Below, in pieces: positions 9,317 to 41,940 of a DNA stretch of 41,940 nt. The stretch comes from Chloroflexota bacterium (lineage in GTDB: Bacteria > Chloroflexota > Anaerolineae > Anaerolineales > Villigracilaceae), in the NCBI GenBank assembly GCA_026390015.1, contig JAPLGS010000103.1, positions 1 to 41,940 on the forward strand, given 5' to 3'. The position numbers and the translations under genes are program-made. Position 1 is the first letter of the stretch. Every line of letters begins with the position of its first letter. Below the pieces are notes generated by a model. The model was not told where the DNA came from. It saw only the letters and a list, made by a program, of their open reading frames with translations, and made no database searches.

Positions 9317-11350
9317 CTACGGTCTTAGATCGATCTCCAAAGAATTAATTTGTAAAATATCCCCGCTCAATTTCACCGAGTCAGATTCAAACCCAAAGAA
9401 TGTCCAAAAGACGGCTTGAGATCGATCTGTTTCCAGCATCGCGGAAATAGCGGGTTCTTTGTGACCATAATATTTTGAACGCCAGCCGCGCGTGTTCTTT
9501 GGGTCTGCGCGAATGATGGAGAAATTACTATTCCCTTCAACCAATCCCATTTGAATTTTATATTTATATAATGCAGGCCATAAGCAAATTGCATTATCTT
9601 TTTGTGAGTATGGAAAATCATTTAGTAGCCAGTGAAGTGCATAGTGATGAGACCGCACATCATTGAGATGGTCAACGACGAGCCAGCGGTCATCATCAAG
9701 CATATGCACAGTACGTTTATGTGTGACTGGGTAATATCCATTATGCTCACCCTGCCAGAGTTTGTCATTTTGTTGAAGGGCTTTTCCCTGTGCCCAATCC
9801 ACCCATGTGAAGCGGCTGACCATTTTCATTTGATCTTTGAAATCCACCGTAACTGTATTATGCGCGGATGTGTGCGCCAATCCGTTTCTCCAAACATCTT
9901 CACCGCTGTATAAATAGGTACCTGCATCACAAGCGATATTAATTCCACGCCACCAAAGATCAACATGGAGTTGATCGGCGTGAGATGGGCGTTCTTGAAA
10001 ATTTGTACAGCGGATGATCGCCTTGCTGTTTATGTTGTGTATGATGTAGACCCCGCCGTTTGGAAAACTTGTATTGTCTTGAACTTCGCTCTGCCTGAGA
10101 GCGTGTGAGCTTTCGCCGCACAACCAAAACAAATCTTCATCCCACAAACCAGGTTCAAACAAAAGTTTGTCTTTTGTAATGAACGAACCCAACTGTAAAA
10201 CGGGTCGGTAATCGGTGAAGTCACATGTGTTTAGTGGAAGTACCAACGCGCCATCATTTGAGCCATAGACCGTCATTTGGCCTGTCTGCGGGTCGATCAA
10301 TTGATACAGATAATCGACCGAGGAGGATATGGATTGATAAAGAGATTCAGAAAAACGTAGTTGATTCAATTCGCCTAATCTTATGGCATATAAATATACT
10401 TGAAGAACAAAGCGATGATAATTAAGCGAGTACATTGAATAACTGCCATCGGGGAAAATCTGCTGAGCCGCCTCCCGCTCGAGAGACATGCGCCCAAACG
10501 ATAAATATTTTTCAGAGTCTTTCAATTCAGGAAAAAGTAATCCCGTCATCCACAACCCGAGCGCTTCACTGATGGAATGATTCCCACGCGTGAAGATTGC
10601 GAAATCGGTGTTGCTGTAAATCCGCTGTGCGTGAGCCGCGATGAATGTTGTTAAATCCGCAATATGTTGAGGCGTGGTGACGGGAGATTCCAAAAAAGTG
10701 TACAGGCCAAAAGTCCATGCCATGAGACGCAAAGCCGCCTCCTGACCATCCATCCAGTTTGGTCCTGCGTTAGGAGGATTTGATTCAGCCCAGGATCGAG
10801 TCAATTGCCAGAATGCCTTTGCGTATCTTTCATCTTGATTAAATGCGTATGCGCGCGCCAGTGTATATACAAAACTAAATCGACTGGCTTCCCAGATAAA
10901 TTTGATATCCACTTTGCCTTCATCAGAAAGTTGTGACCAATGTTTGGTTGAATCCAGTTTGATTCCAGTAATGGGGTCTTTATGCCAATCTGGGGGAAAT
11001 CCGGTTTTCTGAAATTCGTGTGTGAAATATTTTAACTCGCCTGATAAAATCCGTTCAGCTTCATCCATCGCGAGTTGCGGATTCCAGGGAATGTTTTCAG
11101 GGATTTGATTCACGCCCCTGAAAAAGAAAGATTGGGAATTTTGTTTGCGCCACTCGGTATATGACTTGGGATCTGAAGGAATGTCCTTCTTCAGCCATGT
11201 TCCAAGCGGACGGTCCTTCCACTGATAGGCTGGTATTTGCAGGCGAATGAGTCCCGTGCGGATGCGAAATGCATAAGCGAAACGAAATGTCAACCAACGC
11301 AGACCAAGTTGACGGTAGAGCGAAGCGAGTGTTCGGGACTTAGTCCACAT
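9317..11350 (-). CDS. Heparinase II/III-family polysaccharide lyase-like protein
   Basis: A 677-residue protein with two parts. An N-terminal alpha/alpha-barrel-like domain (~1-370) contains FTRGNHSISEALGLW and SLNYHRF, which hold the Asn/His and Tyr-His of this superfamily. A C-terminal beta-sandwich (~400-600) contains SHADQLHVDLWWRG, CDAGTYLYSGED and AHNTVTVD. Enzymes of this type cleave acidic polysaccharides by beta-elimination. No signal peptide is apparent, as is usual for members encoded in polysaccharide-assembly clusters rather than degradation loci. It starts at ATG 11350, 62 nt after the WecA-like gene in the same direction, so it is probably the last gene of that operon. The substrate, and whether it is a lyase or a hydrolase, cannot be read from sequence. 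Confidence 0.82.
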   Translation of the reverse strand: MWTKSRTLASLYRQLGLRWLTFRFAYAFRIRTGLIRLQIPAYQWKDRPLGTWLKKDIPSDPKSYTEWRKQNSQSFFFRGVNQIPENIPWNPQLAMDEAERILSGELKYFTHEFQKTGFPPDWHKDPITGIKLDSTKHWSQLSDEGKVDIKFIWEASRFSFVYTLARAYAFNQDERYAKAFWQLTRSWAESNPPNAGPNWMDGQEAALRLMAWTFGLYTFLESPVTTPQHIADLTTFIAAHAQRIYSNTDFAIFTRGNHSISEALGLWMTGLLFPELKDSEKYLSFGRMSLEREAAQQIFPDGSYSMYSLNYHRFVLQVYLYAIRLGELNQLRFSESLYQSISSSVDYLYQLIDPQTGQMTVYGSNDGALVLPLNTCDFTDYRPVLQLGSFITKDKLLFEPGLWDEDLFWLCGESSHALRQSEVQDNTSFPNGGVYIIHNINSKAIIRCTNFQERPSHADQLHVDLWWRGINIACDAGTYLYSGEDVWRNGLAHTSAHNTVTVDFKDQMKMVSRFTWVDWAQGKALQQNDKLWQGEHNGYYPVTHKRTVHMLDDDRWLVVDHLNDVRSHHYALHWLLNDFPYSQKDNAICLWPALYKYKIQMGLVEGNSNFSIIRADPKNTRGWRSKYYGHKEPAISAMLETDRSQAVFWTFFGFESDSVKLSGDILQINSLEIDLRP

Positions 11351-11412
11351 TTTTTGCTGCTTCTTGCATAAATAAGTGTGTCTTCATTTATTGTTACATA
11401 CCTAAAATTAAA

Positions 11413-38922: not shown

Positions 38923-38971
38923 CGTGACATAAGTTACGGTATTCTTTTTTTTATTCGTGAGATAATTCACA
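38923..38971. promoter_or_regulatory. Two CRP/FNR-like palindromic operators
   Basis: Site 1, CGTGA-N6-TTACG (38923-38938), and site 2, CGTGA-N6-TCACA (38956-38971), have centres 33 bp apart, about three helical turns. Both resemble the TGTGA-N6-TCACA site of CRP/FNR-family regulators. They lie 71-86 and 38-53 bp before the ATG of the 12-helix membrane protein gene; TATTTA (38975-38980) could be its -10. No regulator gene of this family is in the window. Confidence 0.45.
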
Positions 38972-39008: not shown

Positions 39009-40484
39009 ATGCAATTAATAAAAGACAGGTTTAATTACCTCTTCGGCTCCACCAAAGGGCTGATCCTCGTGGCGATCGCCATGATTGGAATCGTCACAGC
39101 TGTCTGGGGCATGCTCTCGGGCCCGATGGCCGAGATGGGCGTACGCGAAGTGGTCATTAAACTTCTCGGAATGAAGATCGTGCAGGCTGAGCGTGAGGGG
39201 CGTATTGTCATCCTGTATCACTCGATCGCGATGGCGATCATTGCGATCGAAACTTATATGATCACAAGCCTGCTCAAAATGAAACCCTTTTTCAAGATCG
39301 CAATCAATGCCATCATCACGGTGGGCTACATTTTGACGATGATCTTCGGCATGGGATTTGCTTACTTCGGGCACAACTGGGCATTTCATGGAATTTATAT
39401 TTTTGGCTTGTCTTTGATCTTCTTTGCAGGAGTCCTGCTGATCATCGCCCTTTGGCCATGGAATCCTGAATACTATGTAACTGATAAAGAATACGCTCAT
39501 ACCAAAAAGGGAGTTGACCTGGAACGCGTGGCCTTCTTCGCCACAGCCGTAACAACCGTGATCTCGGCTTTATTCGGTGCAGTCCCAGGATCATACTTTG
39601 GCAACGGTTTCGAGACTTTTCTCGCTGAGAACATCATCCGCCTGCCCGAAAAAACTACGATGGAATACTCGATCATTGGTCACCTGCATATCATGCTGGC
39701 ATTGATCTGTATCATGATCACGCTCATCATCGGCCGCTGGCTTAACTTCAAAGGCATCCTGCACAAAGTCGCCATGCCGCTGATGATCTTGGGAACCATC
39801 GTGCTCAACCTGGGAGTGTGGGGCGTAGTCACTCCGCTTGAACCCGTTGCGCATATGGTTATCTATGTCGGCGCGACACCATCCATGGTTGCGGCGCTCC
39901 TGTTGCTTATCTGGAGTTGGGGCAAACTAATCCGCGAAGGCACGGCTCATATTCAGAAACCAAGCTTCGGTCAAAAGATCGGAGCACTCTTGCGCGATCC
40001 GCTAAAATTTGGACCGACCTGGCAGATGCTTTTTATGAATTTCACAACCAGCGGAATTGGCATTTTCATGGCGATCAAGCTCGATGAAGTTTTTCGAGTA
40101 TGGCCTGCCCGCGAAGAACGCATCGAACTGACAGGCCACTGGCACGTGCTCTCCGCCATCGTCGCCACCATTATTTTGCTTTACTTCGGCGACATGAACG
40201 GTTTCAGAGGCAAACTGCGCCAGTGGTATGGCTGGAGTATCATCATCCTTTCAGATATTGCCTTTGGCGCCGTGACCGTTTTCGAAATGAAACGTCTCTT
40301 CGTACCAGAAGCCGAGCAGCAACCACTCGTCAACGGGCTTATGTATGCAATTGATTTCGGCCTCGGTATGCTGATGGTCATCCTGGCGGCATTGCTGGTA
40401 TATCGTTTGATCGACCTCTTCAAAAATAAAGGACGCTGGATCGAAGAACTTGACCACGAACTCGCGCGCGAGGTGGACAAATGA
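39009..40484 (+). CDS. 12-helix His-rich membrane protein with three internal repeats
   Basis: I do not recognise a named family for this 491-residue protein. It has about 12 hydrophobic helices that read as three units of four (TM1-4, 5-8, 9-12). Equivalent positions recur: His71, His225 and His377 at the starts of TM2, TM6 and TM10 (spacing 154 and 152); basic turns KMKPFFK, NFKGILHK and GFRGKLRQ before TM3, TM7 and TM11; HGIYIFG, HMVIYVG and GLMYAID at TM4, TM8 and TM12 (His127 and His282). TM6 and TM10 carry GHLH and GHWH. Helix 10 GHWHVLSA recalls the HxH heme-ligand pair of heme-copper oxidase subunit I, but HPEVY and the His-His of its copper site are missing. A b-heme redox role is plausible. 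CGGAGG is a strong ribosome binding site, and the stop overlaps the SUMF1 gene by 4 nt. Confidence 0.8.
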   Translation: MQLIKDRFNYLFGSTKGLILVAIAMIGIVTAVWGMLSGPMAEMGVREVVIKLLGMKIVQAEREGRIVILYHSIAMAIIAIETYMITSLLKMKPFFKIAINAIITVGYILTMIFGMGFAYFGHNWAFHGIYIFGLSLIFFAGVLLIIALWPWNPEYYVTDKEYAHTKKGVDLERVAFFATAVTTVISALFGAVPGSYFGNGFETFLAENIIRLPEKTTMEYSIIGHLHIMLALICIMITLIIGRWLNFKGILHKVAMPLMILGTIVLNLGVWGVVTPLEPVAHMVIYVGATPSMVAALLLLIWSWGKLIREGTAHIQKPSFGQKIGALLRDPLKFGPTWQMLFMNFTTSGIGIFMAIKLDEVFRVWPAREERIELTGHWHVLSAIVATIILLYFGDMNGFRGKLRQWYGWSIIILSDIAFGAVTVFEMKRLFVPEAEQQPLVNGLMYAIDFGLGMLMVILAALLVYRLIDLFKNKGRWIEELDHELAREVDK

Positions 40485-41377
40485 AAGGCCTCTTTCTTAA
40501 CTTCAGCCTGCTCGTTGCTCTATTGGCATCCTGCGCCCCTGTGGATTTAAACGCTGCCATCCCCACCTTCGAAACAGGCGTAGACTCAAACGCCTGGGCG
40601 CAAATCCCCGCGGGCGAATTTTATTTCGGTCAACACGAAGATATTGAAACCACCGAAGCCTATGAGATCATGATCACCGACGTAACCGCCGCACAATATG
40701 CAGACTTTCTCAATGCCGCTCTCGCCGATAACTATGTAAAAACTGACGGCGGTCAAATCGTCGGCTTCTACCCAGGCGATAAGTTCCACGCGATCAAGCA
40801 TGAGGAAGAGATCAAAGCGGGCGATTGGATCTACATCCTGCTCAACGATCCATCGCAGAAAATTAAATTTGACGGCACAACATTCACCGTTCAAACAGGA
40901 TTCAAGAACCACCCAATGACGATGGTCTCCTGGTTTGGCGCACAGGGCTACTGTGAATACTTCAACAGCCGTCTGCCTACTGAAATGGAATGGGAAAAAG
41001 CAGGCCGCGGCACGGATGAACGTTCTTTCCCGTGGGGCGCTGAGATCATGCGCGAAAACGCCAACTTCTACTCAAGCCGCGACCCGTTTGAAGATATGTC
41101 CACTTTCGGTTCACGCACCAGTCCTGTTGGTTTTTACAACGGACAAAAATATGGCGATTTTCAAACTCAAGACTCTGCTTCACCTTATGGCCTTTATGAC
41201 ATGGCTGGCAACGTCTGGCAATGGACAGGTGATGTCTACGAAGGCATGCATTACCGTTTCATGCGCGGCGGGTCAAAAGACACCTACGATATGGATTTGC
41301 GCTTATGGGTCCGCAACAATGCCACGCCTACTTATTTCAGCCCTGGTGTAGGTTTCAGATGTGTGAGAGATAAGTAA
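40481..41377 (+). CDS. SUMF1 (formylglycine-generating-enzyme fold) lipoprotein
   Basis: A 298-residue exported lipoprotein: signal MKGLFLNFSLLVALLASC with acylated Cys18, then a SUMF1/FGE-sulfatase fold. Recognisable parts are IPAGEFYFGQ, TDVTAAQYADFLN, HPMTMVSWFGAQGYCEYFNSRLPTE (substituted cW..A..YC.w..kRLPTE), WEKAGRG, FPWGAE, YGLYDMAGNVWQWTGD and RGGSKDTYDMDLR...GVGFRCVRD. The two active-site cysteines expected between RGGS and GFRC in true formylglycine generators are absent, so it is probably not a sulfatase activator. Related SUMF1 proteins such as NirV accompany nitrite-reduction genes. A 4-nt overlap couples it to the 12-helix membrane protein, and the two likely form an exported unit. 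Confidence 0.85.
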   Translation: MKGLFLNFSLLVALLASCAPVDLNAAIPTFETGVDSNAWAQIPAGEFYFGQHEDIETTEAYEIMITDVTAAQYADFLNAALADNYVKTDGGQIVGFYPGDKFHAIKHEEEIKAGDWIYILLNDPSQKIKFDGTTFTVQTGFKNHPMTMVSWFGAQGYCEYFNSRLPTEMEWEKAGRGTDERSFPWGAEIMRENANFYSSRDPFEDMSTFGSRTSPVGFYNGQKYGDFQTQDSASPYGLYDMAGNVWQWTGDVYEGMHYRFMRGGSKDTYDMDLRLWVRNNATPTYFSPGVGFRCVRDK

Positions 41378-41454: not shown

Positions 41455-41940
41455 ATGACCGTCCAATCATCAATCATAAATCGTAAATCAAAAATCAAAC
41501 TCTACTGGCCTCTCATAAAGAGCACCCAAACCGGGTTGCTTCTGGCAACAGGCATCGCGGGCTACCTCAGCGCGGGAACACGCATCGGCTTGCTGACCTT
41601 ACTTGGTATGTCAATCAGCCTCTTCCTCGCCATCAGCGGATCAACCATCCTAAACATGTGGTACGACCGCGATATTGACGCGAAGATGAAACGCACTCAC
41701 AAACGTTCCGCTGCATCAGGCGAGTTGGATCATAAGGAAGTCTTTGGGGTTGGCATAGCTGTCTCAATTCTTGGGATTGGCTGGGCAATCAGCATCGCAC
41801 CGTTTTATGGTCTCGTGGTTTTTGCAGGTTGGTTCTTTGACGTGGTCATATACACCCTGTGGTTAAAACGCCGCACTGCGTGGAGCATTGTCTGGGGCGG
41901 CATTTCAGGCGCCATGCCCATTCTGGCGGGCCGCGTGCTT
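41455..41940 (+). CDS. ctaB: Protoheme IX farnesyltransferase (heme O synthase), 5' part
   Basis: The first 162 codons of a UbiA-superfamily prenyltransferase that farnesylates heme B to heme O for terminal oxidases; the frame is open to the window end. The diagnostic first Asp-rich motif is NMWYDRDID (Asn67, Asp71, Asp75), followed by KMKRTHKRS. The later YTLWLKRRTAWSIVWGGISG and PILAGR fit CtaB specifically. AGGAG lies 5-9 nt before the ATG. The first ~15 residues (TVQSSIINRKSKIK) are coded by an AATCGTAAATC-type repeat, so the native start may be slightly different or the repeat has extended the N-terminus. Oxidase structural genes would be expected further downstream. Confidence 0.92.
   Translation, partial: MTVQSSIINRKSKIKLYWPLIKSTQTGLLLATGIAGYLSAGTRIGLLTLLGMSISLFLAISGSTILNMWYDRDIDAKMKRTHKRSAASGELDHKEVFGVGIAVSILGIGWAISIAPFYGLVVFAGWFFDVVIYTLWLKRRTAWSIVWGGISGAMPILAGRVL
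41465..41499. repeat. AATCGTAAATC-type repeat in the 5' end of ctaB
   Basis: AATCATCAATCATAAATCG is followed by TAAATCAAAAATCAAA. ATCGTAAATCAAAAA (41480-41494) is identical to 28784-28798 in the folC/DUF503 gap. Confidence 0.6.

Follow-up and report, generated by a model that had tools for sequence, protein, structure and literature searches.

The heme-copper oxidases (HCOs) and nitric oxide (NO) reductases are treated as one superfamily that is recognisable from sequence and defined by heme together with a His-bound metal. In HCO subunit I (cbb3 CcoN, ba3, aa3 and bo3; PF00115), CuB or FeB is held by one His of helix VI and a His pair of helix VII, and the low-spin heme is liganded by a His of helix II and by the second His of the helix X HxH motif. 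The NO reductases of the superfamily (cNOR, qNOR, eNOR, gNOR and sNOR) keep the His residues of the non-heme metal and use heme b. NnrS (PF05940) is a further 12-helix membrane protein that contains heme and copper, and PMC1274295 names it as a member of NO regulons. We analysed a 41,940-nucleotide stretch of Chloroflexota DNA (the window) encoding a membrane protein that shares with HCO subunit I a predicted 12-helix fold over its whole length, a His in helix 2, an HxH in helix 10, a His in helix 6 and, in its main branch, an adjacent CtaB, but that differs from it in having no profile match, no His pair in helix 7 and no HPEVY motif, and in adding a second HxH (helix 6) and invariant His residues in helices 4 and 8. 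With the NO reductases it shares the predicted fold, and it is preceded by regulator sites like those of NO genes, but it lacks the helix-7 pair and its main branch carries CtaB. Compared by sequence profile, it gave no match to NnrS.

The open reading frame proposed by the first-pass annotation was recovered with exactly the same boundaries, encoding 491 residues (Table 1), and we refer to its family as HCOL, a name coined for this analysis. Its own genome, of 177 contigs and 4.3 Mb, contains a single match (E up to 10). Homologues were found in 17 of 400 genomes sampled across the phylum and at no fewer than 76 loci in GTDB contigs; within the class, 66 of 396 genomes carry a homologue, as do 45 of the 234 with completeness of at least 90% and contamination of at most 5%. 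Identity among these homologues falls as low as 34%, and most of the named relatives are Anaerolineales, Anaerolineae or Chloroflexi MAGs. Searches of Pfam and NCBIfam (E up to 10) matched HCOL to no model, and neither as a single sequence nor as a profile did it match the sequence of a PDB chain. Both PF00115 and PF05940 (NnrS) were absent among the 13 Pfam families listed for 30 HCOL members (E up to 1), and a PF00115 search of the window's genome (E up to 1e-5) found three other places and not HCOL. Weak Pfam matches of single members were judged to be due to chance, the best being DUF2214 in one of 30 members (E 0.00098). No plasmid match was obtained with a divergent member as the query, and our literature search of open-licence papers yielded none recognisable as describing this family.

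Table 1. Positions in the window of HCOL, its conserved His codons, upstream palindromes and downstream genes.
Feature	Positions	Strand	Evidence or remark
CRP/FNR-type palindrome GTGACATAAGTTAC, 85 bases before HCOL start	38924..38937	.	such sites in 34/71 loci
GTGA-N6-TCAC palindrome, CRP-like, second possible regulator site	38957..38970	.	between FNR-type box and HCOL start
HCOL, HCO-fold 12-helix membrane protein (predicted), 491 aa	39009..40484	+	ORF; predicted fold; homologues
Codon of His71, helix 2	39219..39221	+	invariant, 46/46
Codon of His127, helix 4	39387..39389	+	invariant, 46/46
Codons of His225-Leu-His227, helix 6, GHLH (His227 codon starts at 39687)	39681..39689	+	both His invariant, 46/46
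Codon of His282, helix 8	39852..39854	+	invariant, 46/46
Codons of His377-Trp-His379, helix 10, GHWH (His379 codon starts at 40143)	40137..40145	+	invariant, 46/46; 0-1 residue from HCO helix X HxH if ungapped
SUMF/FGE-fold lipoprotein, 4-base overlap with HCOL stop	40481..41377	+	PF03781, E 1.6e-38; closest solved relative SUMF2
Heme O synthase CtaB/CyoE, 292 aa, continuing beyond the window end to contig position 42333	41455..41940	+	TIGR01473, 217.4 bits (cut-off 210.3)

An AlphaFold2 model of HCOL built from 30 sequences (mean pLDDT 81, pTM 0.86) contains twelve long helices (residues 15-33, 59-88, 93-120, 124-147, 171-196, 217-244, 250-273, 278-311, 331-356, 366-396, 401-428 and 434-471). 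When this model was compared with the PDB by Foldseek, ranks 1-20 were all HCO subunit I with a probability of 1.00 (best E 1.8e-3, TM 0.61), no match having an E-value of 0.001 or below; the first match outside the HCOs was a MATE protein at rank 21 (TM 0.19), MATE and MurJ proteins reaching a probability of 0.28 at most, and chain B of the P. aeruginosa NO reductase appeared at rank 27 (TM 0.52). VIA-align listed 50 matches, all HCOs by title, with Z-scores from 23.4 to 19.4 over 392-438 aligned residues, the best being a cbb3 subunit (Z 23.4, rmsd 3.9, 405 residues); for reference, the best Z was typically 14 for five helical models that lacked a clear match. A second model, confined to residues 66-384 (46 sequences, pLDDT 84), placed HCOs at ranks 1-36 (Z 16.6-12.4), and below them stood four-helix LTC4 synthases with a Z of about 12 covering 125-145 residues. 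Both models come from small alignments and are heme-free, and it is at this level, that of predicted models, that the pseudo-threefold 12-helix fold of the HCOs is found and that the kinship with the oxidase array suspected in the first-pass annotation is borne out by the two search programs. By sequence, when hhalign set the whole family against 21 and 25 HCOs from related genomes, the score remained at noise level, and the best unit-to-unit score, between unit 2 of HCOL and unit 3 of the HCOs (P 7.6e-4 in nine forward tests, with nine reversed controls reaching down to 0.012), is suggestive only as a signal of homology. Overall, these results support the view that HCOL is a relative of HCO subunit I by its predicted fold, unseen by sequence profiles and lacking the copper-ligand pair. 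Of the three outcomes that the first-pass annotation had named as speaking against it, an unrelated fold, an internal repeat without significance and non-conserved His residues, none was observed, the repeat being significant for two of the three units.

The model placed seven His residues on the helices that had been proposed for them (Table 1), including the two GHxH motifs of helices 6 and 10. All seven were invariant in a set of 46 HCOL sequences picked for diversity, 14 of which are at 34-44% identity, while the other five His residues vary. In the first set of 77 distinct sequences, His71, His127, His282, His377 and His379 were present in every member and His225 and His227 in 76, with one gap, and the remaining five were His in 66 (H122), 24 (H164), 70 (H252), 46 (H314) and 45 (H483) members. 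The only His of helix 7 is H252, near its start, which is replaced by Gln in four members and Tyr in two, with one gap. Tyr70, Tyr119, Arg65, Arg173, Arg211, Asp330, Glu370, Trp378 and Trp409 are also invariant in the diverse set (46/46). Where the CuB or FeB site takes one His from helix VI and a pair from helix VII, HCOL thus has two invariant His residues in helix 6, none in helix 7 and no pair, and the HPEVY motif is absent as well, just as the first-pass annotation had read the sequence. Because the helix-7 pair is missing, HCOL fails a defining test of the HCOs, and since neither the helix-7 ligands nor a match to PF00115 was found when looked for, it lies outside the known catalytic HCO families, in line with the earlier statement that set it apart from ordinary oxidases and NO reductases; its mode of action may nevertheless resemble that of the catalytic HCOs.

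The first-pass annotation had also described HCOL as a triplicated protein of three four-helix units, and this held by sequence for units 2 and 3 (residues 166-316 and 320-474), which hhalign aligned with a P of 6e-9 (probability 96) and with HLH on HWH. Unit 1 (12-160) joins them mainly through the predicted fold, its sequence alignments to unit 2 (P 0.007 over 132 columns) and to unit 3 (P 0.05) being weak beside six reversed-sequence controls at P 0.04 to 0.48. Canonical HCOs of related genomes (loci L109-L137 and the c491 proteins described below) show their threefold repeat by the same method (P 3.7e-11, 2.6e-6 and 1.2e-4), so that a detectable repeat is not special to HCOL. The second model was deliberately ended within helix 2 and within helix 10, so that the register can be read from its aligned termini: residue 66 is matched to residue 58 of the bovine enzyme, 69 of ba3, 57 of cbb3, 99 of R. 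sphaeroides and 103 of bo3, and residue 384 to residues 382, 390, 351, 426 and 425, respectively. This pairing, if ungapped, would put His377 and His379 exactly on His419 and His421 of R. sphaeroides and one residue before the HxH in the other four structures. Under the same condition, His71 would lie two positions past the helix II heme ligand in each of the five. This displacement speaks against a plain copy of the low-spin heme site, although at the rmsd of these alignments (3.4-4.1) a two-residue offset is not decisive. The helix 10 register of HCOL therefore agrees with that of the HCOs and the helix 2 register agrees only to two residues. His71 and His379, the candidate counterparts of the low-spin heme ligands, are invariant and in the right helices, with the end register of the truncated model two residues off for His71 and 0-1 for His379; the invariant His377 would fall at the place of the proximal ligand of the high-spin heme to within 0-1 residue if ungapped.

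Within HCOL, the sequence alignment of the repeats sets His71 on His227 (unit 1 on unit 2) and on His379 (unit 1 on unit 3), and an alignment by eye of the RExRI that precedes both His71 and His377 sets His71 on His377; the helix II His of canonical HCOs pairs with the first of the two helix X His residues. The heme sites of HCOL may thus be read in two ways, as an HCO-like pair of His71 and His379 or as a moved site of His71, His127 and His225. The second reading, based on the repeat register (His71 equivalent to His227 and His379) and on the two-residue structural slip, would have one site of His71, His127 and His225 in the pore between helices 2 and 6, which is not known to hold a cofactor in the HCOs, an equivalent site of His227, His282 and His377 in the active-site pore, and His379 alone in the pore of the low-spin heme. 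We consider this arrangement arguable but unlikely; if true, HCOL would be a heme-O enzyme built on the oxidase fold, nearly symmetric and without copper, and would offer a view of heme binding by the triplicated ancestor.

As shown in Table 1, HCOL is followed by genes for a SUMF-like lipoprotein and for CtaB. Among the at least 76 GTDB loci, the lipoprotein is downstream of HCOL in 66 of the 68 main-branch loci with room for it and CtaB in 64 of 65, and the four-base overlap between lipoprotein gene and HCOL stop recurs in 40 of the 61 loci in which a lipoprotein ORF was called. In loci L057 and L021 tblastn did not find the lipoprotein, though the ORF map of L021 shows one. The best PDB match of the lipoprotein is SUMF2 (1y4j, E 2e-19), with which, and with FGE, it shares the PF03781 domain; it has a lipobox-like Cys (Cys20 in the reference sequence), and the catalytic Cys pair of FGE was not seen in the aligned region. 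A conceivable identity for this SUMF-like protein is NirV, which PMC4770552 names as a partner of NirK. The CtaB proteins keep N-x3-D-x3-D in at least 95% of 53 main-branch members, and that of the window's genome (locus L139) scores above the curated heme O synthase cut-off (Table 1). Other frequent neighbours are membrane proteins without a name, namely c3 (downstream in 49/62 loci and upstream in 43/69), c6 (47/60) and c5 (43/62); one representative of each was scanned without a Pfam match, and no recognised subunit II was seen among the frequent main-branch neighbours scanned. The c3 protein, of 202 residues with one conserved His, flanks the HCOL operon, with 77 copies in 54 loci (32 of them upstream), one being at L139:4336-4941 (contig positions 42336-42941). 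Upstream of HCOL in two other loci (L145:11849-18167 and L147:2998-9050) there is a lipoprotein whose similarity to FmdE falls just below the Pfam cut-off, together with the recurrent unnamed membrane proteins c5 and c10, to which L145 adds a Fer4_5 iron-sulfur membrane protein.

The genomic distribution of CtaB and PF00115 bears on which protein uses the heme O. Genome G072 (99% complete, 1% contaminated) has HCOL and no PF00115 match (E up to 10), and its one TIGR01473 match (E 1e-10 or better; C1:225836-226657) is about 1.1 kb downstream of HCOL (C1:227739-229205). HCOL is also present without a PF00115 match (E up to 10) in G443 (93% complete) and with a 16-bit PF00115 fragment only in G563, each of these two genomes having more than one CtaB-like match. 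In the window's genome, with its three PF00115 places, a second CtaB on contig 55 is near one canonical oxidase gene. Because the sole CtaB of G072 is near HCOL in a genome without an HCO match, and because the window's genome has a separate CtaB, the main-branch CtaB is best explained as serving HCOL, and from this we infer that HCOL binds heme O; the CtaB of an HCO-less genome could instead serve another unknown protein. Since a heme O synthase is part of the main-branch operon, the first-pass description of HCOL as a multi-heme b protein may be wrong in the type of heme. The NO or quinol link suggested there draws on the regulator sites described below and on what adjoins HCOL in some divergent members. 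PF00115 itself was found in 37 of 40 genomes of the class with HCOL and in 24 of 40 without it (Fisher P 0.0012), and in 18 of the 31 HCOL-lacking genomes at 90% completeness or more, the other 9 negatives being under 90%; as the two groups differ in lineage and quality played no part in the choice of negatives, this co-occurrence is weak evidence of a respiratory lifestyle.

Upstream of HCOL, palindromes of the FNR-type pattern KTGAY-N4-RTYAM, lying either in the 250 bases ahead of HCOL or around the start of the preceding c3 gene, occurred in 34 of 71 loci, compared with 0, 0, 0, 0 and 1 for five permuted half-site patterns, although this is no independent test, as the pattern was chosen with sites from these related loci already in view. 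In the HCOL-proximal part, 11 loci have a site where about 1.4 are predicted from background density. The second palindrome of the window, GTGA-N6-TCAC, is exact in none of 72 relatives and present with at most one mismatch in 13 of 72, compared with 3.4 expected from shuffles. A CRP/FNR-family gene is upstream in 39 of the 52 loci with room, and these proteins are a mixed group with 0-5 Cys residues, two or fewer in 33 of 46. According to PMC1274295, TTGACnnnnGTCAA is a site of some HcpR proteins and TTGATnnnnATCAA is the FNR box bound by DNR, both being regulators of NO and low-oxygen genes, and the sites upstream of HCOL resemble both. These sites would fit control by either oxygen or NO.

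The 15 divergent loci examined (L141, L142 and L166-L178) have different surroundings. In L176-L178 (HCOL identity 34%), the gene next after HCOL encodes a CtaB homologue and overlaps HCOL by four bases, leaving no lipoprotein in between, and the CtaB of L176 passes the heme O synthase cut-off (211.3 bits). In the other 12 (L141, L142 and L166-L175, some on short contigs), neither CtaB nor the lipoprotein was seen beside HCOL, which argues against a general requirement for heme O. In L141, of genome G011, genes for a DUF438-hemerythrin-PAS protein, a flavodiiron protein and HCOL stand in a row on one strand; the contamination of G011 is 8%, so this neighbourhood may be foreign to it, and our search within the class of G011 covered one genome only. 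A YtfE-like protein is encoded 3.8 kb upstream of HCOL in L174 and, in L177, a flavorubredoxin-like protein on the opposite strand at a distance of 6.8 kb, both below their curated cut-offs, and L173 encodes a small protein with weak similarity to subunit II. In L142, HCOL adjoins a PF00115 HCO (c491) with homologues in L171, L173 and L175. Neighbours of the NO type are found in only part of the divergent branch, and for some of the HCOL family they lend support to a theme of NO or O2.

Taken together, the predicted oxidase-core fold, the seven invariant His residues, the missing copper-site pair and the adjacent heme O maker suggest that HCOL may be an overlooked respiratory or NO-handling heme protein. 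We favour, with a probability of about 0.55, the reading that HCOL is a copper-less, probably heme-O-binding family of the HCO fold that acts under low oxygen or with NO, most likely as a quinol-linked redox enzyme or carrier; our confidence is lowered by the lack of CtaB beside HCOL in most divergent loci. HCOL would then be a remote homologue of HCO subunit I, built of three times four helices, with the helix 2 His (to within two residues) and the helix 10 HxH at the heme-binding places of the HCOs, a second HxH on helix 6 and, near the beginning of each of helices 4 and 8, one invariant His as additions, and no helix-7 pair to hold CuB or FeB. It would most likely bind two hemes, perhaps three, at least one of which is, in the main branch, probably heme O made by the adjacent CtaB. 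The protein would probably be produced under a CRP/FNR-type regulator when oxygen is low or NO is present, together with the extracytoplasmic SUMF2-like lipoprotein; heme binding and this physiology we infer from the features above. As for substrate, electron donor and catalysis, our guess is that HCOL, linked to quinol, binds a diatomic gas (NO or O2) or reduces it, the site of which would be built on His377, His227 and His282.

The same observations can be read in other ways. HCOL might be a pure electron-transfer protein, with bis-His low-spin hemes only (for example His71/His379 and His377/His227) that pass electrons between quinol and an unknown periplasmic partner without gas chemistry; the HxH motifs of both helices 6 and 10 and the missing copper ligands of helix 7 would suit such a role, and no cytochrome c or cupredoxin family was seen among the frequent main-branch neighbours (one representative each), but heme O is typical of high-spin oxidase hemes, and its synthase is linked to HCOL in the main branch, while some divergent members have neighbours of the NO or O2 type, so that we think this reading unlikely, though with a real chance of being correct. 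HCOL could also resemble NnrS as a heme-containing 12-helix protein of NO stress that lowers NO toxicity and is not a reductase; the FNR/HcpR/DNR-type sites before the operon and the flavodiiron, YtfE-like and DUF438-hemerythrin neighbours of some divergent members are consistent with this, but the sequence profile comparison of 30 members listed no NnrS family, and we hold it to be distinctly unlikely. A role as an assembly or heme-handling factor that passes heme O from CtaB to canonical HCOs would explain the tight CtaB linkage of the main branch and the higher frequency of PF00115 in genomes with HCOL, subject to the differences in lineage and completeness given above, but is improbable given that G072 and G443 carry HCOL with no PF00115 match and G563 with a fragment, that another CtaB stands near a canonical oxidase gene in the window's genome, and that 24 of 40 genomes without HCOL still have PF00115. 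That the resemblance to the HCOs is convergent, HCOL being a 12-helix transporter or metal protein whose invariant His residues bind another metal, is very improbable, since, although sequence profiles do not tie it to the HCOs and LTC4 synthases reach a similar Z with part of the short model, the whole-length Z to HCOs is 23, MATE and MurJ proteins score poorly, the HxH and the His are on the same helices 10 and 2, and CtaB is in the main-branch operon.

Under the favoured reading of a copper-less HCO-fold heme protein, a family common in the class and missed by the profile libraries searched here would widen the HCO superfamily beyond its defining metal site, and it would make the first heme binding by the triplicated oxidase fold directly testable. 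Should HCOL use up NO or O2, its contribution is missing from the respiration and denitrification estimated from genomes of these Chloroflexota.

Two further HCOs were observed in the course of this work. The PF00115-type c491 proteins (L142:10818-12443, L173:7072-8685, L047:4801-6441 and L171:1599-3479), which adjoin several divergent HCOL genes, have no helix-6 His, and WGLDMVADGN replaces HPEVY; as read from its sequence, the L142 copy keeps HH in helix 7 and HxH in helix 10. The L173 copy is below all NCBIfam oxidase cut-offs, and in L047 and L173 a cupredoxin-like protein of 138-140 residues precedes c491. Contig 106 of the window's genome encodes an eNOR-like HCO and a small neighbour protein (L149:9098-10828 and 10836-11357). 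A Gln in helix 6 is a mark of eNOR (PMC8756737), and a close homologue of this eNOR-like HCO, L044_21, has GHPAQQ at helix 6.
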